Shown here in pieces: positions 26,501 to 59,853 of a DNA stretch of 64,000 nt (position 1 is its first letter; the number at the start of each line of letters is the position of its first letter). Under the pieces are notes generated by a model, which was not told the DNA's origin, searched no databases, and saw only the letters and a program-made list of their open reading frames with translations. Made by a program: the position numbers and the translations under genes. This stretch comes from Fibrobacter sp. (GTDB lineage: Bacteria; Fibrobacterota; Fibrobacteria; Fibrobacterales; Fibrobacteraceae). The stretch is taken from positions 1 through 64,000 of the forward strand of contig JAKSIF010000004.1 in NCBI GenBank assembly GCA_024398965.1, in the 5' to 3' direction.

Positions 26501-28369
26501 TTACCTAGCAATTTTAACAGTTTGGACTTCACTTGAATAACGGTTCTTGACAATGTAGACACCCTTGTTCTTGAGGTAGTCGCTATTCTTCACCAAGGAA
26601 ACGGCGGCATTCATACCATAGGCGCTAAGACGACCCATATGCGCACCATTCATGTCGAATACGTCGTAATCGGAAAGGACCTTAGCACCCATGTGCAGAT
26701 TCTGACCAATAGCAAAGCACTCATCATCCGTTTTGCAATCCACTTCCGGCAGAGGTTCTGTATCCGGAGCATTTTCTCCAGCCACGAAGTTGATGTAGTC
26801 GATATCCATCCAGTCACCGGTAACGGTAAAGCGGAGAATATGTTCGCCTGCAGTCAGGTTCACATTAGCGGAGACCTTGTTGTAGTCGTCATAGTTTTCT
26901 TCGCCAGCGGCAGCCTTGGGAACAGAAATCTCCTCGGTAATGTCCTTGTCATCCATAGACAGCTTGAAACCGGAAGTGCTGTTGGCGGAAGCCACGGCGG
27001 CATACATGGTGTATGTTCCAGTTTCCTTGACATTCACGGTGTATTCCAGCCATTCACCTGTCTGGTTATAACCAACGACAATGCGATTGCCGGACTTTTT
27101 ATAAAGATCTACACCTGTACCCTTACGATAATCGGAATCACCATGATTTTCGGTATCCATATCGTAATAGGAATCGTTACCCCTACCCTTACCCGGAACA
27201 TCGAAGTCTTCCATCTCGATCTTTCCCGGAATGGAAAGGGCCTTCCCCTTGAACGGAGTCTGGGGTTCCGGTTCTACAGGAATTGCCGTGTCGTTCTGGC
27301 CCTTATCAAGGTTATTTGCAAAGTATTCTTCCAGCCACTTCATGGCAGCGCGCTTGGTGCCATTGCTTTCCATGATGCCGGTATTGGCAGCCCAGGTTGC
27401 GCCATTGATGTAACCCCAAATGGTGATGCCACCAATCCAGGGAGTTTCCCACATGAAGGGAATCTGGTTGGCATAGTCATTCTTCTGCTTCTGGTCATCG
27501 GCTTCACCGATATCGTATTCGGAAACCAGCAGAGGAATGCCAACGGCATCGTGGATCTTGGTCATCTTGGATTCAAAATCGGCCTTGCTCATACCCTTAC
27601 AGTCATGGGACTGCTGACCATAGAAGTCAATGGGAGCACCATTCTTGAGCAGAGTCTGGACCATTTCGATACCTTCGTTCATCTGCCAGGAAAGGGTGTT
27701 GTAGTCGTTATAGATGAGCTTTGCTTCCGGCCAACGTTCGCGGGCCATTTCGAAAGCCTTCTTCACGAAGTTGTACTGATGCTTGCCGTTAATCACATCG
27801 TCGCCACCGAGGGCCTGCACAATGTAGGTACCGCCGCATTCCGGGTCGTCGGTACTGATGCCTTCGGCACCTGCAGCGGGCTTGCTATAACCGGAATGGT
27901 AGTTGTCGCCAGCCCAGATTGCTTCGTTCACCACGTCGATGTATTCAAGGTCGGGGAACTTGGCAGCCACAGCATCGAACCACTCGGTAATGTACTGAAG
28001 GGTCTTTTCCTTGGTAATGCCAGGATTCTTCTTGGTGCAAAGGAAGTTGGGTTTCTGGGAACCCCAAATCAAGGCATGGAACTTGAAGGTGCGTTCACCC
28101 GGCTTTTCCTTGGCCCACTTGTAACCGTTTTCGCAGCTATCGAAGCCGTTAAAATTGAAAACGCTCTTTCCGTTGGCGTCAACAGAATGGATAGAGCCCC
28201 ACTTACAGCCGTTTTCGTTGGTAATCTGGTTCCAGTAAGTTCCCATATCAGAACGGATCTGGCTATTGGTAGTAATGTTACCCAAAAACTTAGCGCCACC
28301 ATCAGCAAGGGCTGCATGGGACATCGATGCGGCAGCAAGGCCTGCAAGAAGCGATACAAACTTTTTCAT
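26501..28369 (-). CDS. GH10 xylanase with CBM6 and tail (GH10 gene 3)
   Basis: A secreted xylanase of about 622 residues from ATG 28369. The signal peptide is about 1-19. Acid/base E149 lies in YIDVVNEAIW and nucleophile E284 in LLVSEYDIGE. The GH10 domain is almost residue-for-residue that of gene 1, differing mainly in surface positions and a shorter GDNYHSG loop. The CBM6, however, is of the other local variant (MEDFDVPGKGRGNDSYYDMDTENHG) and the tail reads DVFDMNGAHMGRLSAYGM...KGVYIVKN...VKIAR. The gene is at the left end of a divergent pair with the plus-strand CE1 esterase. Confidence 0.94.
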   Translation of the reverse strand: MKKFVSLLAGLAAASMSHAALADGGAKFLGNITTNSQIRSDMGTYWNQITNENGCKWGSIHSVDANGKSVFNFNGFDSCENGYKWAKEKPGERTFKFHALIWGSQKPNFLCTKKNPGITKEKTLQYITEWFDAVAAKFPDLEYIDVVNEAIWAGDNYHSGYSKPAAGAEGISTDDPECGGTYIVQALGGDDVINGKHQYNFVKKAFEMARERWPEAKLIYNDYNTLSWQMNEGIEMVQTLLKNGAPIDFYGQQSHDCKGMSKADFESKMTKIHDAVGIPLLVSEYDIGEADDQKQKNDYANQIPFMWETPWIGGITIWGYINGATWAANTGIMESNGTKRAAMKWLEEYFANNLDKGQNDTAIPVEPEPQTPFKGKALSIPGKIEMEDFDVPGKGRGNDSYYDMDTENHGDSDYRKGTGVDLYKKSGNRIVVGYNQTGEWLEYTVNVKETGTYTMYAAVASANSTSGFKLSMDDKDITEEISVPKAAAGEENYDDYNKVSANVNLTAGEHILRFTVTGDWMDIDYINFVAGENAPDTEPLPEVDCKTDDECFAIGQNLHMGAKVLSDYDVFDMNGAHMGRLSAYGMNAAVSLVKNSDYLKNKGVYIVKNRYSSEVQTVKIAR

Positions 28370-28634
28370 GATTACATCCTTTTTGTAGTAAAACACCATT
28401 TACAATCATGAAAACTACCCGCATTTAGCCCAAATGTATCTCACTAGATCAAAAATCCATTGTATAGTTTGACAACACTCACTTTTCGCATTTAGAAATA
28501 AAATTCTTACACACTTTTAAGACAAAAATTGAAATTTTAGTTTACATTCGGCTATTTTCGCAAAATCTAATGCTATTTTCTTACACGAGTGTATAAAACG
28601 GGATGTTTTGGGTTGGTAAAAAAGGAGACTAACA
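28370..28634. other. Divergent control region between GH10 gene 3 and CE1 gene
   Basis: 265 bp of AT-rich sequence without a gene. It holds the weak palindrome-type promoter of GH10 gene 3 (28409-28475). On the plus side it has two TTACAC words (about 28507 and 28581), the second within the dyad TACAC-GA-GTGTA at 28582-28593. AAAGGAG stands before the CE1 ATG. Confidence 0.5.
28409..28475 (-). promoter_or_regulatory. Island promoter of GH10 gene 3: degenerate palindrome plus -10
   Basis: Gene-sense TTGTCAAACTATACA at 28461-28475 keeps the outer TTG and CA but has a weak right arm. The -10-like TAGTTTTCA at 28409-28417 is exactly 55 bp away. The spacing, more than the sequence, supports it. 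Confidence 0.55.
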
Positions 28635-30143
28635 ATGAATTTTACCCGTTTTTTTGGCGTGGCAAGTGGGATTGCCATGTGTTGTTCTGGCCTTGCTTTT
28701 GGCTGGAGTATCAGCGGACATGTTGTGAATGAAATCGGTCAGGCCATTCCTGGCGTTTCCATCAACTCGTTCAATTACGCAGGCATCAGTGGCGAATCTG
28801 ACACAGACGGCGCATTCAGCCTAAGCAATGACGCAGACGCCCTCTTCGGAACAGCCGTACAACGCAAGATTTCTGTACAAAGGCACGGCAACCTGTTGAG
28901 CATTGCCGGCAACCGGGGCACCATGAAGGTATCGCTGATGGACGCACTGGGCAAGGAGGCCTTCCAGCAGGAATTCAACCAGCAGAACGTCCAGATTGAC
29001 ATGAGCAAGTTCGGCCAGCAGAAGGTCATGATCCTGCGAATTTCCAATCAGAGTTCCAGCGAGAATTTCATCCTGACCCAGAAAGGCGCCGTCAAGAACG
29101 TCTTGAAGAAAGAAGGAGAACAGCCCGCCGTTCTGATGTTCTCCAAGACCGGCTTCCAAAACAGCACCTACACCATGGCTCAGGATGTAGAAACGAACGT
29201 GACCATCACCCTAAAAACGGCAGAAGTCACACCAGGCGATCCGACCGAAAAATCCTCCAGTTCCGTTTTCAATCCCTGGGAACCCCAGCAGAGTTCTTCT
29301 AGCTCTGAAACTCCTGTCGTAAGCAGTTCCAGCAAGATAGAGGAAGTAATAAGCTGCGCCGGCAAGACCTATGCAGCAGGCGATCACAGGATGACCGTAA
29401 ATGTAAACGGCAAGAACCGCACCTACATTATGCACGTGCCCAGCAGCTACAAGGGCGACAAGGCGGTTCCCCTCGTTGTAGATTATCACCCCATCGGAGG
29501 TTCCGGCGAAGGACAGCTTAACGGAACAACATACAAGAGCCTGACCGACCAGGAAGGCGTCATTTCCCTGTATCCCGACGGAACCAGCGGCAAGTCTCCA
29601 ATGGGCGCAGGCTGGAATGTGGGCCCTTGCTGCTCCTACGATGATGACCTGGAATTCTCCAGAGCAATGATCAACATGGTGGAAGAAAAAGTCTGCATCG
29701 ACACCAAGCGCGTCTACGCCACCGGATTCTCCATGGGTGGCGGCATGAGCAATCACGTTGCCTGCTTCATGTCCGACATTTACGCCGCCGTGGCACCTGC
29801 CGGCATGGACCTGAACACCACCAACAGCGCCACCTGCAATCCCGAACGCCCCATATCCATCATCATGTTCCGCGGCACAAACGACTTCGTCTGCAAATAC
29901 CAGGGCGGCGATAGCGGTTTCAACGACGGCTTGAATTTCCTGGGCGCCGAAAAGAACTTCAAGTTCTGGGCAGACAAGAACGGATGTACCGGCTCCCCCA
30001 CCACCAACTCCAACGGCTGCCAGGAATACTCCAGCTGCAAAGATGGCACCAAGGTGGTTCTCTGCACCAAGCAGGGAGGCGGTCATGAACAGGGCGACGG
30101 CAAGGTCGGCTGGCCTTTCCTGAAGCAGTTCACCATGCCGTAA
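28635..30143 (+). CDS. CE1-type esterase with N-terminal tail-like domain
   Basis: A secreted 502-residue protein and the only plus-strand gene of the island. The signal peptide is about 1-23. A carboxypeptidase-regulatory-like strand set (ISGHVVNEIGQAIPGVSI...DTDGAFSL) follows, then a segment at about 80-150 (VSLMDALGKEAFQQEF...KVMILRIS) that resembles the C-terminal sorting tails of the other enzymes but sits inside the protein. A Ser-rich linker (205-235) leads to the alpha/beta-hydrolase. Catalytic residues are S366 (ATGFSMGGG), D417 (FRGTNDFVCKY) and H484 (GGGHEQGDG). This matches feruloyl/acetylxylan esterases and PHB-depolymerase-like CE1 enzymes. Several cysteines suggest disulfides. 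It has no CBM6 and no island-type promoter, so its control may differ. Exact substrate unknown. Confidence 0.85.
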   Translation: MNFTRFFGVASGIAMCCSGLAFGWSISGHVVNEIGQAIPGVSINSFNYAGISGESDTDGAFSLSNDADALFGTAVQRKISVQRHGNLLSIAGNRGTMKVSLMDALGKEAFQQEFNQQNVQIDMSKFGQQKVMILRISNQSSSENFILTQKGAVKNVLKKEGEQPAVLMFSKTGFQNSTYTMAQDVETNVTITLKTAEVTPGDPTEKSSSSVFNPWEPQQSSSSSETPVVSSSSKIEEVISCAGKTYAAGDHRMTVNVNGKNRTYIMHVPSSYKGDKAVPLVVDYHPIGGSGEGQLNGTTYKSLTDQEGVISLYPDGTSGKSPMGAGWNVGPCCSYDDDLEFSRAMINMVEEKVCIDTKRVYATGFSMGGGMSNHVACFMSDIYAAVAPAGMDLNTTNSATCNPERPISIIMFRGTNDFVCKYQGGDSGFNDGLNFLGAEKNFKFWADKNGCTGSPTTNSNGCQEYSSCKDGTKVVLCTKQGGGHEQGDGKVGWPFLKQFTMP

Positions 30144-53836: not shown

Positions 53837-56188
53837 CTATTTTGTAATAGACACACGATGAATCAGGCCGTTCTTGGTAGACTTGACCAGATAAATACCC
53901 TGCTGCTTGACCAAGTTGCGAGTCTGTGTTCTAATTTGCTGAATATTGGCAGCTTCGATGCTACCCATGAACGTTCCAGTCAAGCTGAATACATTGTAAT
54001 TCTGGCCCTGGGAAACACTATACTGGATCTTGGAAGCAATCACGGTATGGTCACCACTGCCTTCGTCATCGCCTTCACCTTCTTCGGGATCTTCCGGTTC
54101 TACGATGGGTTCCGGGTCAGTAGCATCCTTACCCTTCACGAAGGTGATGTAGTCAATATCAAGCCAGGAACCAACTACGGTAAAGCGCAGCACATGTTCG
54201 CCAGCGGGCAAAGTGACATTGGCAGAAACCTTGTTGTAGTCATCGTAGTTTTCTTCGCCAGCCTTAGCAGCAGGAACCGCGATGGTTTCGGTAATGTCCT
54301 TGCCATCCAGGGAGAACTTGAAGCTAGAGGTAGAACCTGCGGCGGCAACAGCGGCAAACAGGGTGTAGTCGCCAGCTTCCTTTACGTTCACGGTGTATTC
54401 CAGCCATTCGCCTTCTGCGTTGTAGCCAACGATAACGCGATCGTTGGACTTCTTGTACAGATCAACGCCGGTATTGCTACGATAGTCGGAGTCGCCATGA
54501 TTTTCGGAATCGGTATCATAGTAGGAGGCGCCATCCTTGCCCTTGCCCGGATCATCGAAATCTTCCATCTGGATCTTTCCCGGAATTGCCCACGGGGTCT
54601 GAGTAGCGTTATGAGCGGTCTGGGGAACAGGTTCAATTGCGCCATCCAGGTAGATTTCGTCGTTGACATCGTCGCCAACCTTGAACCAGTCAAATGCGGC
54701 GGTACCACCGGCAGTCTTCTTGGCATAGTTAAACAGGCCAAAACGGTAACCCACGAACATGCCCAAGGTATAGGGCAACTTCAGTTCCTTGCCATACTTG
54801 GTCCAGCTCTTTCCATCAGTGCTGTAGTAGAAGTTTGCGCGGTCCCTAGTGAAGTCGAAGTCTATGCGGAGGTAAACTTCGTCGCCATTGATAGGAGTGC
54901 CGGAAATCTTGAATTCACGTTCGTAGTAAACCACTTCAAAGCTGTTGCCGTTCTTTTCCAGAGCAACAAAGCCCAGGGAGTCTGCAAGTGCAACAAGACC
55001 GGCAACATCGCCATCCTTCATGTCCTTGCCGCTCACCAGAGTACGGCCAGAGCACTTGGGGCCATAGGTACGCTGGGTCAAGGTGTTCTTTGCATTATAA
55101 AGCTTGCCATCGACGCGGCCAGTGGTAATCTTCAGCTTGCCGTCGGAAAGAGCCCACTTGCTGTTATCGGGATTGTGGTTCCACTGCCATTCCAGCGGAA
55201 GCTCCGGACCGTCGAATTCATCGGAGGTAACCATGCCATAGCCAGGATCAACAGCGTTCGGCAAATTGATGGTAGAAGGAGCCTTGCCGCCAACAACAGT
55301 GGGCCAGCCATCCTTCCATTCCACTTCCATCAAATAGGGAATACGACCGATGCCACCGCTATCGCGGAACAGGTAGCCATACCACTTGCCACCTTCGGTC
55401 TGGAAGATACTACCCTGAGCAACACCGTTGTTCTGCAGGAAAACCTTGCCGGAATAACCACTCTTAAGGCTCTTGGAACGGAATACCAATTCTGTACGGC
55501 AAGGGCCATACCAGCTAATGCCAAACAGGTAGTATTCGCCATTGACTTTTTCCATGTGGGCACCTTCAAGAGCCACAATGTAGCTGCTAGTGCCAGAAGT
55601 CTGATTACGCAGGGCTTCGCTCACCAATACGGTAGATCCGCCATCGGGGCCGGAAAGGTCGGATTTCAGCTTTACGATACTGAGCTGGCCACCGCCGTAA
55701 ACAACGTAGGCACTGCCATCATCGTCAATAAAGAAGCTGGGGTCGTGATAGAAAGGCAAAAGCTTTTCGGTAAAGGGACCGTTTTCGATATCGTCGGTAA
55801 TATAAAGATGAGTTTTGTTGGTGGTATAGGACGGAGTCAAGATATACCACTTGCCCTTATGATAACGGATAGCGGATGCCCAGGAGCCCTTACCGTAGGC
55901 ATTCTTGCCGCCGTTCAGGTTCATGTTGTCGCTATTGGTCAAGGTCTGGTAAGCATAATTGACGGTACGCCAATTTGCCAAGTCGGTAGACTTCATGATA
56001 GGCACACCAGGAGCATAGTGCATGGTGGTACTTACCATGTAATAGTTGTCGCCCTCGCCCTTGGCAATGCAAAGGTCCGGAACATCGGAATAAATCCACG
56101 GATTGGAAACGGATGCGGCAACAGCAGAACCTGCCAAGGCAGAGCCAATCAAGGCTGCGGCGCCCAAAATCTTCTTAAAACATCCCAT
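53837..56188 (-). CDS. GH43 enzyme with C-terminal beta-sandwich, CBM6 and tail (GH43 gene 2)
   Basis: A secreted protein of about 783 residues from ATG 56188 (AGGAG seven bases upstream). The signal peptide is about 1-25. The propeller starts NPWIYSDVPDLCIAKGEGDNYY with catalytic base near D38; the tuning Asp is in YHDPSFFIDDDGSAYVVYGG and the acid Glu in VALEGAHMEKVNGEYYLF. A laminin/concanavalin-like beta-sandwich (about 325-520, EFDGPELPLEWQWNHNPDNSKW), usual for GH43 beta-xylosidases, follows, then CBM6 (about 540-690), an acidic linker and the tail (YNVFSLTGTFMGSIEAAN...GIYLVKST). Beta-xylosidase or alpha-arabinofuranosidase activity is expected. This is a different GH43 type from gene 1. 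Confidence 0.92.
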   Translation of the reverse strand: MGCFKKILGAAALIGSALAGSAVAASVSNPWIYSDVPDLCIAKGEGDNYYMVSTTMHYAPGVPIMKSTDLANWRTVNYAYQTLTNSDNMNLNGGKNAYGKGSWASAIRYHKGKWYILTPSYTTNKTHLYITDDIENGPFTEKLLPFYHDPSFFIDDDGSAYVVYGGGQLSIVKLKSDLSGPDGGSTVLVSEALRNQTSGTSSYIVALEGAHMEKVNGEYYLFGISWYGPCRTELVFRSKSLKSGYSGKVFLQNNGVAQGSIFQTEGGKWYGYLFRDSGGIGRIPYLMEVEWKDGWPTVVGGKAPSTINLPNAVDPGYGMVTSDEFDGPELPLEWQWNHNPDNSKWALSDGKLKITTGRVDGKLYNAKNTLTQRTYGPKCSGRTLVSGKDMKDGDVAGLVALADSLGFVALEKNGNSFEVVYYEREFKISGTPINGDEVYLRIDFDFTRDRANFYYSTDGKSWTKYGKELKLPYTLGMFVGYRFGLFNYAKKTAGGTAAFDWFKVGDDVNDEIYLDGAIEPVPQTAHNATQTPWAIPGKIQMEDFDDPGKGKDGASYYDTDSENHGDSDYRSNTGVDLYKKSNDRVIVGYNAEGEWLEYTVNVKEAGDYTLFAAVAAAGSTSSFKFSLDGKDITETIAVPAAKAGEENYDDYNKVSANVTLPAGEHVLRFTVVGSWLDIDYITFVKGKDATDPEPIVEPEDPEEGEGDDEGSGDHTVIASKIQYSVSQGQNYNVFSLTGTFMGSIEAANIQQIRTQTRNLVKQQGIYLVKSTKNGLIHRVSITK

Positions 56189-56237
56189 AGGAGAACTCCT
56201 TTTCGAAGGGTACACCGACCCTTACCATTCTACACTC

Positions 56238-56336: not shown

Positions 56337-56365
56337 AAAAAAATCCCGATCAAAAGACCGGGATT
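56337..56365 (-). terminator. Terminator of the CE6 operon
   Basis: The minus strand has AATCCCGGTC-TTTT-GATCGGGATT and then more T. It follows the 27-residue ORF, so that ORF is inside the CE6 transcript. Confidence 0.85.
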
Positions 56366-56392
56366 CTTGAAAGTTTCCTCAAACGGACTTAT

Positions 56393-56476
56393 TTAGCCGT
56401 ACAGAAAGCCCAAAATAACTGCCACCGCAAAAAAGAGGCCGAATTGCTTCAAAATGAACATTTCCTGCTTTTTCAT
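56393..56476 (-). CDS. 27-residue membrane peptide coupled to the CE6 gene
   Basis: A short ORF overlaps the CE6 stop codon by one base (TAATG) and has its own strong AAGGAG five bases before the ATG. It encodes MKKQEMFILKQF, then a purely hydrophobic segment GLFFAVAVILGFLYG and a TAA stop. That makes one short membrane helix with a basic N-terminus. A terminator follows 28 bp later. The ribosome site, tight coupling and membrane pattern argue that it is translated. I do not recognise it. It could help anchor or secrete the esterases, or regulate a membrane complex; the function is unknown. Confidence 0.6.
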   Translation of the reverse strand: MKKQEMFILKQFGLFFAVAVILGFLYG

Positions 56477-58131
56477 TACTTCTCCTTACGGACAATAAAG
56501 GACTTTACACCGGGAACACGAACCAGGTAGACACCCAGCTTCTGGGCATCGGACTTGCCTACACGATTACCCCGCATATCAAAGTACTGGGCCTTAGACA
56601 TATCCTCTACACGGTTAGCCAAAACGCCGGCACGAATGCCAATTGGTTCAAAGCATTCAGAGCCTTCGCATACAACAGGCAACGTATCCTTCACTGTGGT
56701 ATCAGACGGAACGGGATTTTCCGGGTCCGGCTCCACAACTTCGGCTTCAGCCTTCTTGAATTCCACATAGTCAATATTTACCCAGTCCGACTCAATCTGG
56801 ATCTTGAGATCATAATCGCCGGCCTTCAAGGTAACCTTACCACCGCTAATGCTCGTATAGGTATCATAGTCGTCGGCAGCATTCTGCTTAGAAACCATGG
56901 TTTCACCAATCTTGTCATCACCCAGGTAGACTGCGATAGCACCGGTACCGTTCGTGCCAGAAAGAAGCGCGCTCATTTCGTATTCGCCGTCTTCTTCCAC
57001 ATGAACGGAGTACTTCATCCATTCACCCTTCTGGCAGTAACCTACAGCCATGCCCATGCCGGCCTTGTAAATATCGACGCCGTCACCGCGGTATTCATCG
57101 CCCTGGTTCTTGCTATCCATATCGGAATAGGCAACGCCGGAACCGCCCTTGTTGTAGTCTTCGGCCTGAATCTTGCCAGGAATCTTGAACACGTCGCCAT
57201 AGGGGCCATATTCCTCGGGCTTTTCGCTACCTGCAGAACCGCCGCCGTAAAGAGGTACACTTACCGAGGGTGCGCTGGGATCCACCGTCTTGTCGATAAG
57301 CTTCAGCATTTCGGCAGCGTAACGCTTACCCATTTCTACATAGCCATCGTGGTCAAAGTGCAAACGGTCGCTCTGCATGCCCGTTCCCTGGGACTTGGCA
57401 ACGCCAAACTTTGCAAAGTACTTGGAAAGACCGTTTACGCGGGTGCTCATGCCGTGGCAGGCGCCATTGTACACCATTTCACCAGCGACGAAGGGCAATT
57501 CTTCCTTAATGCCCAGGTCGTTACGCATGTCGTTATAAGTCTTTTGGACAATCTGTTCCCAGTTACCCATGCCGCCATCGGTTTCGCCCTGATGGAAAAT
57601 GAATCCCTTGATGACACCCACTTCCTGAGCCTTCTTGGCCAGGTTGATAATAGCAGCATAATCATTGCCCTGGGAGTCATAATCTTTTGCCCAATTGGCA
57701 AGCCAACTTTCGGAGGAGTTCACATAGCTCTGCCACTGGGCCTTGTCAAACAGCTTGATGGAGGCGCCACCAACAGCCACAGGAATAATACCGATGGTCA
57801 CGTTGGGCATTTCCTTGGCCATGGTCTTTCCGAAATAGTCTGCCACAGAAAGGCCTTCCTGGCAATGGAACATAGGAGGCACGGCCTTGGACCACTGACC
57901 CTTGGCAAGCTTGATGTTGGTACCGCCCTTACGGGAATTACAGTCAACACCGGAGATCATGACAAAGTTGTCAACAGGATCCTGATCGCCCGCCTGAATG
58001 GAGCCAGCGCCAGCCATGTTGCTCTGGCCGTAGGCGATATAAATGTGGAAATTGGGATTAGGCGCCGCACTAGCCTGGCTTGCAAGCATCAGCGCAGCAC
58101 CTGCCACTAAACCTTTAATTGAAACCTTCAT
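56476..58131 (-). CDS. CE6 acetylxylan esterase with CBM6 and short basic tail (second in operon)
   Basis: A secreted protein of about 551 residues from ATG 58131 (AAAGGG upstream). The signal peptide is about 1-22. The SGNH-type CE6 domain has nucleophile S37 in YIAYGQSNMAG, then GIIPVAVGGASIKLFD, GFIFHQGETDGG and the C-terminal RLHFDHDGY carrying Asp/His. CE6 enzymes remove acetyl groups from xylan. CBM6 is about 320-455 (IPGKIQAEDYNKGGSG...IDYVEF), followed by an acidic linker and the short tail (MSKAQYFDMRGNRVGKSDAQ, then KLGVYLVRVPGVKSFIVRKEK). It lies 19 bp downstream of a second CE6 gene with no promoter between, so they form an operon. An adjacent CE6 pair (Axe6A/Axe6B) has been described in F. 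succinogenes; which gene is which is not settled here. Confidence 0.92.
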   Translation of the reverse strand: MKVSIKGLVAGAALMLASQASAAPNPNFHIYIAYGQSNMAGAGSIQAGDQDPVDNFVMISGVDCNSRKGGTNIKLAKGQWSKAVPPMFHCQEGLSVADYFGKTMAKEMPNVTIGIIPVAVGGASIKLFDKAQWQSYVNSSESWLANWAKDYDSQGNDYAAIINLAKKAQEVGVIKGFIFHQGETDGGMGNWEQIVQKTYNDMRNDLGIKEELPFVAGEMVYNGACHGMSTRVNGLSKYFAKFGVAKSQGTGMQSDRLHFDHDGYVEMGKRYAAEMLKLIDKTVDPSAPSVSVPLYGGGSAGSEKPEEYGPYGDVFKIPGKIQAEDYNKGGSGVAYSDMDSKNQGDEYRGDGVDIYKAGMGMAVGYCQKGEWMKYSVHVEEDGEYEMSALLSGTNGTGAIAVYLGDDKIGETMVSKQNAADDYDTYTSISGGKVTLKAGDYDLKIQIESDWVNIDYVEFKKAEAEVVEPDPENPVPSDTTVKDTLPVVCEGSECFEPIGIRAGVLANRVEDMSKAQYFDMRGNRVGKSDAQKLGVYLVRVPGVKSFIVRKEK

Positions 58132-58150: not shown

Positions 58151-59827
58151 TTACTTATTGTTTCGTACAATAAATGTCTTTACGCCCGGAATACGGACAA
58201 GGTAAATACCCTGATTCCTTGCAGCAGCCTTTCCTATGCGATTTCCGTTCATGTCAAAGTACTGAGCCTTGGACATATCCAGCGGACCATTTACCATGAG
58301 TTTCTGGCCAATGGCATCCGGGCAATCAGCTTCGTCACAAGGAATGCGGTTAAACACTGAATCTATTATTATCACAGGATCCTTGGGATTTTCCGGATCC
58401 ACGCTGGTCTGTCCAGAAACCTTCTTGAACTCCACGTAGTCAATGTCAATCCAAGAATTGGTGATTTCAAGCTTCAGCTCATGTTCGCCAGCCTTGAGGG
58501 TTGCCTTGCCACCACTTACGGTGGTAAATTCGCCAAAGCCCTTACCTTCGTTAACGAGGTCCTCGCCAATCTTCTTATCGTCGATGTAAAGAGCAAAACT
58601 GCCGGTGCCATTGTCGCCCGCCACCAGAGCGGAGATTTCGTAGTCACCATCTTCAGCGACCTTCACGGAATACTTCATCCAGTCGCCCTTCTCGCAGTAG
58701 CCCACAACCATACCCATATTGGGCTGGTAAATGTCTACGTCATCCTTACGGAGGATTCCGCCTTCGTTACCCTTGTTGTTATCGTGATAGGCAACCTCGG
58801 CACCACCCTTGTTGTAGTTTTCAGCCTGGACCTTGCCCGGAATTTCAATGACATCTACATAGGGGCCGTATTCTTCAGGAGGTTCGTCGGGAACAACGGA
58901 ATTTTCCGGATTTACCAAATCTACAGGAGGAGCGTTGGGGTCGATGGTCTTGTCAATAAGCTTCAGCATTTCGGAAGCATAGCGCTTGCCCAGCTCAATA
59001 ACGCCTTCGCGGCCAAAGTGATAAGGATCCTTGCCATTGCCCTTCAGGCCCTGAGAAGAAGCCAGGCCGAACTTCTTGAAGTTGTTCTTGAGCATGGCGA
59101 TGCCCGGATTCTTGCTGGAGCAGCAGGCGCCAGATTCCTGGAGCATTTCGCCTGCCACAAAGGGAACATCGTTTTCGTTCAGGCCGAGAGCGTCAATCAC
59201 GTCCTTGTAGGTCTTGTAAACGGTTCTACGCCAGTTGTCGTCAACGCCGTCAGATTCGCCCTGATGGAAAATGAAGCCCTTGATGACGCCCACCTGCTGG
59301 GCCTTCTTGGCAAGTTCCAGGATACGTCCCGGAGGATTGTTGTCGTAATCCTTGGGCCAGCCCCAGGACATGATGTCCTTACCGTCGCCCTTGAAGTAGG
59401 ATTCATACTGGTCCTTGTCGAAGGCGCGGATACTTACGGCACCGATGGCAACGGGAATAATACCCACGGTGACACCCGGAAGAGAATCTACCATAGCGCG
59501 GCCAAAGTAGTCCGCCGGAGAAAGCTGTTCGAAGGCGTGGAACATGGGGGGAATTGCCGGATACCACTCGCCCATCTTGATGGACTGATTGGTCTGGCCT
59601 TTACGGCTGCTAGCGTTTGCCGTATGGGAGGCTAGCATCAAAAAATTCTTTGGATTGGTCGCCTGATCTACGGAAGGCACAATTTCGCCGTTACCCGCCA
59701 TATTGGACTGGCCGTAGGCGATATAAATATGGAAATTGGGATTGGGAGCAGCGACAGCCAACGAAGCAAGAGATAAAACTGTGCCCAACGCGAAAATAGA
59801 ACGGGCAAGCCTGCTAGAAAAACCCAT
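58151..59827 (-). CDS. CE6 acetylxylan esterase with CBM6 and short basic tail (first in operon)
   Basis: A secreted protein of about 558 residues from ATG 59827 (AAGGAG six bases upstream). The signal peptide is about 1-27 (SLAVAA). Nucleophile S41 lies in YIAYGQSNMAGNG; further CE6 motifs are GIIPVAIGAVSIRAFD, GFIFHQGESDGV and DPYHFGREGVIELGKRYASE. It contains two more cysteines (SGACCSSKN) than its partner. CBM6 (about 325-460) has the YHDNNKGNEGGILRKDDVDIY variant. The tail (MSKAQYFDMNGNRIGKAAARNQ, then GIYLVRIPGVKTFIVRNNK) is almost that of the partner gene. It is the first gene of the two-esterase operon and carries the island promoter. Confidence 0.92.
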   Translation of the reverse strand: MGFSSRLARSIFALGTVLSLASLAVAAPNPNFHIYIAYGQSNMAGNGEIVPSVDQATNPKNFLMLASHTANASSRKGQTNQSIKMGEWYPAIPPMFHAFEQLSPADYFGRAMVDSLPGVTVGIIPVAIGAVSIRAFDKDQYESYFKGDGKDIMSWGWPKDYDNNPPGRILELAKKAQQVGVIKGFIFHQGESDGVDDNWRRTVYKTYKDVIDALGLNENDVPFVAGEMLQESGACCSSKNPGIAMLKNNFKKFGLASSQGLKGNGKDPYHFGREGVIELGKRYASEMLKLIDKTIDPNAPPVDLVNPENSVVPDEPPEEYGPYVDVIEIPGKVQAENYNKGGAEVAYHDNNKGNEGGILRKDDVDIYQPNMGMVVGYCEKGDWMKYSVKVAEDGDYEISALVAGDNGTGSFALYIDDKKIGEDLVNEGKGFGEFTTVSGGKATLKAGEHELKLEITNSWIDIDYVEFKKVSGQTSVDPENPKDPVIIIDSVFNRIPCDEADCPDAIGQKLMVNGPLDMSKAQYFDMNGNRIGKAAARNQGIYLVRIPGVKTFIVRNNK

Positions 59828-59853
59828 AAACAACTCCTTATAGTTTTACAAAC

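Follow-up and report, generated by a model that had tools for sequence, protein, structure and literature searches.

A predicted 27–28-residue membrane protein family of Fibrobacter, encoded behind secreted hemicellulase genes and as genes of its own

KdpF and CydX are single-helix proteins of about 30–40 residues that are co-transcribed with larger genes. KdpF is one such small subunit (PMC3618439). A second reference point is AcrZ (PF10766), the accessory protein of the AcrB efflux pump, likewise a small single helix, in which P16 matters for binding and the topology is N-out/C-in (PMC7267776). DltX (PF12459), the acyl shuttle of teichoic acid D-alanylation, is a membrane microprotein too; a Tyr close to its C-terminus is conserved, and its neighbours have the SGNH fold. 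There are also MBOAT systems that carry a fused shuttle tail and have no separate microprotein (PMC12148441). Finally, the peptides of type I toxin-antitoxin pairs, of which TimP is an example (PMC7667032), are similar in size, hydrophobicity and occurrence in several copies to the protein described here.

The window, i.e., the whole stretch of 64,000 nucleotides of Fibrobacter DNA that was analysed, encodes this protein at the end of an operon with two acetylxylan esterase genes:

53837..56215, minus strand: GH43-CBM6 enzyme, identified by its domains, the next gene behind the terminator
56339..56368, minus strand: intrinsic terminator (hairpin plus U-run) that closes the CE6-CE6-peptide operon, identified by folding against shuffles
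56393..56476, minus strand, stop codon included: predicted 27-residue single-helix membrane protein MKKQEMFILKQFGLFFAVAVILGFLYG, identified by its ORF, homologues and selection
56482..56487, minus strand: Shine-Dalgarno sequence AAGGAG in the last CE6 codons (Lys-Glu-Lys), 5 nt before the peptide ATG
56476..58131, minus strand: second CE6-CBM6 acetylxylan esterase (PF03629, PF03422), with a 1-base overlap with the peptide; start set at the ATG of MKVSIKG
58151..59833, minus strand: CE6-CBM6 acetylxylan esterase encoded first in the operon, with no peptide behind it

The peptide ATG (56476-56474) has its A in common with the CE6 stop codon (TAATG), and the peptide stop codon TAA lies at 56395-56393. 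The terminator hairpin (-21 kcal/mol, z -3.7, with none of 200 shuffles as good) has its G+C core about 28–30 nt past that stop. The sequence-only reading of this locus had described a start inside the CE6 stop codon, an AAGGAG site and a terminator 28 bp past the ORF; on re-reading, all of this is correct, as are the coordinates and sequence of the peptide. The surroundings of the operon, with two CE6-CBM6 genes upstream of the peptide and the GH43-CBM6 gene downstream, contain more CBM6-bearing hemicellulases. The small single helix and the co-transcription with larger genes are reminiscent of subunits of the KdpF/CydX type, but the genes to which the peptide is coupled encode secreted hydrolases rather than membrane complexes, and a promoter-driven paralogue exists.

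Homologue searches, which took in 111–168 genomes, identified 127 distinct homologous sites in 65 genomes that encode 104 distinct peptides of 27–28 residues. The carriers are 64 of 80 Fibrobacter genomes, mostly with one to three copies each, and a single genome of a sister genus (G102), where the peptide overlaps a CE6 gene as well. When 84,980 species genomes, a set from which entries closely related to the genome of the window may be missing, were scanned with a degenerate DNA pattern, 53 stretches matched, 52 of them on Fibrobacter contigs and one (L146) on a contig of the Fretibacterium MAG RUI161. Because the latter contig bears both a CE6 end and a peptide of the Fibrobacter type, it is probably misbinned. 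No Pfam or NCBIfam model was matched by the peptide over its cut-off (the only hits, DUF3270 and DltX, were both far below), these libraries gave no match to KdpF, CydX or other named small-subunit families, and no description of the peptide was found in the open-access literature searched; the family is apparently undescribed so far. What appears to be new here is a predicted membrane protein family of 27–28 residues in Fibrobacter, absent from the profile libraries searched and with two modes of expression recognizable from gene context. In the S85 genome paper, the adjacent CE6 genes Fisuc_1766 and Fisuc_1767 are followed by the CE1 gene Fisuc_1768 with consecutive tags, which is compatible with, although no proof of, a peptide gene left unannotated in S85. 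Carriers have 2–7 PF03629 genes, compared with 0–2 in Fibrobacter non-carriers, and possess an MBOAT of ~473 aa, whereas 14 of 16 non-carriers show only an MBOAT of ~620 aa; both patterns may reflect one and the same clade effect.

The pattern of substitution in this family is that of a coding frame under strong purifying selection. In tests that start at codon 5, as codons 1–4 of many copies overlap with CE6, pN/pS is 0.14–0.16 in the reading frame (0.16 for 449 related pairs), compared with 1.2 and 4.2 in the two alternative frames. Across 50 non-overlapping pairs, 300 synonymous differences stand against 123 non-synonymous ones, with 305 of the 423 differences at codon position 3. Beyond the stop codon, identity collapses, from 82% in the CDS to 34% in the next 60 nt (ungapped, same pairs). 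The frame-specific selection and the collapse of identity past the stop rule out a chance ORF, and, judged by these sequence comparisons, it is close to certain that the peptide ORF is a genuine gene. The sequence-only reading had proposed a real, conserved small membrane protein and had named an unconserved frame, or substitutions spread evenly across codon positions, as the contrary outcome; the 127 homologous sites, the selection and the excess of differences at position 3 bear the proposal out.

Conservation extends to the last residue. Every one of the 127 sites ends at the same residue, the C-terminal pattern of the family being L-G-x-x-Y-G. L22 and G23 do not vary across the 104 distinct peptides, and position 10 is always basic (K/R10, 104), followed by Y26 (103), Q11 (101), G27 (99) and A19 (95); the AxxxGxxxG spacing is present in 95, and the peptide ends with xYG in 99 and with YR, YH or FS otherwise. 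There is no net charge past residue 11 in 101 of the 104 peptides and no proline after residue 5 in any of them. The same residues are conserved in copies that are coupled to enzyme genes and in those that stand alone. The one feature that suggests a docking face is the AxxxGxxxG spacing, since conservation has no significant moment towards one face of the helix (p 0.12).

For about 70 copies, the start codon falls within or shortly after the stop codon of a gene for a secreted CE6 or GH43 enzyme. The geometry is mostly an overlap of 8 or 11 nt with CE6, some copies being located 14–18 nt behind CE6 and a GH43 subgroup 3 nt behind its gene, and the copy in the window has the 1-nt overlap. In most coupled copies, a Shine-Dalgarno sequence (AAGGTGG, encoding Lys-Val-Val) lies within the last codons of the enzyme; the homologues have AAGGTGG/AAGAAGGTGG at the position equivalent to AAGGAG in the window. 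A 7/8 Shine-Dalgarno match was found in 46 of 54 CE6 genes with a peptide behind them versus 4 of 33 without one, a contrast that is approximate given that some ORF ends in the latter group are spurious. Tandem CE6 copies retain a peptide each, and the divergence of CE6 is correlated with that of the peptide (Mantel r 0.50, 0 of 1000 permutations). The overlap of start and stop codons and the Shine-Dalgarno sequence placed in enzyme codons predict translational coupling. Many CE6-coupled copies also have a GH43 relative as their downstream neighbour. The signal peptide MKKENLKIIKQTVGLLAFAAVLALPG of a GH43 enzyme downstream of the peptide in some genomes (L042, 8107 onward; L056, 8205 onward) matches the peptide profile at E ~0.003, and one of the two may have been derived from the other.

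The remaining copies, about 55, are genes of their own, most with a conserved three-part promoter. The ordered elements TCAC, CTTACA and TnTAnnTT occur in 39 of the 56 upstream regions classified as stand-alone, a few of which belong to distant members of enzyme clusters, but in none of the 71 coupled ones (shuffle mean 0.0). TCAC is often part of TGA-N6-TCAC, with spacing as in CRP/FNR-type sites. A leaderless mRNA is suggested for one subgroup, in which ~7 nt separate the end of the last promoter element from the ATG. The neighbours of the stand-alone copies are coaE, EamA, DUF3392, TrpS or GDSL genes in variable order. DUF3392 can be discarded as an obligate partner, since many carriers lack it and some non-carriers have it. 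A search for a regulon based on the promoter of the stand-alone copies retrieved mainly peptide genes, with other matches at about the level of the control pattern, and a stricter pattern had no match in the window's own genome. At least 40 of the 65 genomes carry both kinds of copies, a lower bound because identical copies were merged. The sequence-only reading had tied the peptide to secreted esterases. Its part on the CE6 genes holds, the peptide being placed for co-transcription and translational coupling with them, but an esterase-only view is too narrow, because at least 40 genomes have a stand-alone copy as well and one subgroup follows a GH43 gene.

The charged head, uncharged remainder, hydrophobic core and AxxxGxxxG spacing point to a single N-in inner-membrane helix that packs on another helix. 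As the best explanation for all these observations jointly, to which we assign a probability of about one half, we propose a Fibrobacter-restricted family of single-pass microproteins in which the peptide is an inner-membrane accessory helix on a polytopic protein, its dose being raised together with that of hemicellulases. In this model, the helix spans the inner membrane such that its charged N-terminus would stay in the cytoplasm and its neutral YG end would reach the periplasmic side (N-in/C-out, a topology predicted from charge only). Packing would involve A19-x3-G23-x3-G27, with K10-Q11 at the cytoplasmic interface, and the helix would dock on a polytopic membrane protein and adjust how this protein assembles or works. 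Whenever xylan-degrading enzymes are made, the copy coupled to a hemicellulase gene would add to the peptide dose. The role as an accessory subunit or regulator is suggested by analogy with known proteins of similar size; the regulation of transporters or secretion machinery that the sequence-only reading had in view is hypothetical. More tentatively, and with odds that we would put on the doubtful side, this could be a portable microprotein gene of one genus, whose helix is both appended to hemicellulase genes and separately regulated, such that the state of an inner-membrane machine would follow the synthesis of extracellular plant-cell-wall enzymes.

By analogy with AcrZ, the peptide could bind an RND-type or other transporter and tune its substrate range. 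AcrZ entries are the only PDB sequences matched by the family profile, and both proteins share an A-x3-G-x3-YG pattern in the C-terminal half of the helix, at nearly the same chain position (VVMAIILGLIYG in AcrZ and VAVxLGFxYG in the family); the PDB match, however, has an E-value of 2 only, and no RND gene is found near those peptide copies whose neighbours were identified. Membership in the AcrZ family itself is rejected: PF10766 had no match over its cut-off in 21 genomes (the sole peptide site listed scored 10.4 bits versus 26.2), the proline bend of AcrZ is missing from the helix of all 104 peptides and the predicted topology is opposite. Furthermore, the peptide has 27 residues compared with 49 in AcrZ, is confined to Fibrobacter and is encoded behind CE6/GH43 genes. 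We regard an AcrZ-like function as unlikely. A similarly low probability seems appropriate for a mimic of a signal peptide, that is, an uncleaved helix that occupies or primes Sec/YidC during the export of large amounts of enzyme and may have arisen from a hydrolase signal peptide encoded nearby. The location of the coupled copies behind genes for secreted enzymes agrees with such a role, as does the match to the GH43 signal peptide, although the latter may be a convergence of charged head and hydrophobic core; the stand-alone copies adjoin housekeeping genes, and we know of no counterpart in signal peptides of the invariant C-terminal LGxxYG. The exact overlap of start and stop also fits a frame in which the act of translation is all that counts, e.g., by setting ribosome traffic where the esterase mRNA ends, with an inert peptide. 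This is refuted by the frame-specific selection, which acts at the amino acid level, and the fixed C-terminus and the promoter-driven stand-alone copies argue against it as well.

Small size, a single helix and several copies per genome would be expected of a hydrophobic toxin peptide of the type I toxin-antitoxin kind. Such a toxin is quite improbable, because the peptide is coupled to hydrolases, about 70 of its copies being tied in this way to hemicellulase genes; moreover, the leaders of the stand-alone copies are short (in one subgroup, the ~7 nt already mentioned), and, by eye, no conserved block besides promoter and terminator is a candidate for an antisense RNA. The nearly invariant Tyr next to a probably extracytoplasmic C-terminus, the coupling to SGNH-type esterases and the distribution of the ~473-aa MBOAT recall DltX and would be compatible with an acyl shuttle in which this Tyr carries acetyl or another acyl group from an MBOAT to an SGNH transferase. 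Single peptides do match the DltX model weakly (E 0.005–0.08), but the alignment covers the helix only, PF12459 was over its cut-off in none of 61 genomes and the peptide lacks the FxYxxF shuttle motif. Up to three MBOAT types occur in Fibrobacter (L245-L254), and the ten proteins read, a sample of the MBOATs of the genus that covers three types and comprises nine proteins of carriers and one of a non-carrier, all end with a fused FxYxxF-type tail (NPFLYFQF, PFIYFQF, SQFIYANF). Since these MBOATs carry the motif themselves, a DltX-type shuttle is disfavoured and, in our estimation, very improbable. A core component of the T9SS is disfavoured as well, because SprA is present with or without the peptide, i.e., in 40 of 40 high-quality Fibrobacter genomes, including non-carriers of the G031 type (G032, G046, G090).

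In herbivores, Fibrobacter is one of the leading degraders of fibre, and there is little understanding of how its envelope is coupled to the digestion of plant cell walls. A protein of 27 residues that is conserved to its last residue and present in most Fibrobacter genomes is a compact handle on this problem, in that the protein to which it binds would lead to an inner-membrane machine with a link to the use of hemicellulose. The maintenance of one small gene in two ways, with its own promoter and by start/stop overlap with enzyme genes, is also relevant to the annotation of small proteins.

Several features were noticed in the course of these comparisons. At 28470-28511 on the plus strand, the window contains a CRP-like TGA-N6-TCAC together with TTCTTACA, arranged as in the stand-alone promoters, between a divergent GH10-like ORF (26501-28399, minus strand) and a CE1-like esterase ORF (28635-30143, plus strand); such matches are near the control level. 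A protein of 336–368 aa (MPAEIKILERAEMYLRKLS...) is encoded directly behind many stand-alone copies (L052, 8160-9263; L057, 8411-9418; and others), and one such protein had no match in a Pfam search. Directly before the terminator hairpin, many stand-alone copies (e.g., L039, L048, L107 and L111) have a GAGAGAGA box, which occurs once in the 64-kb window.
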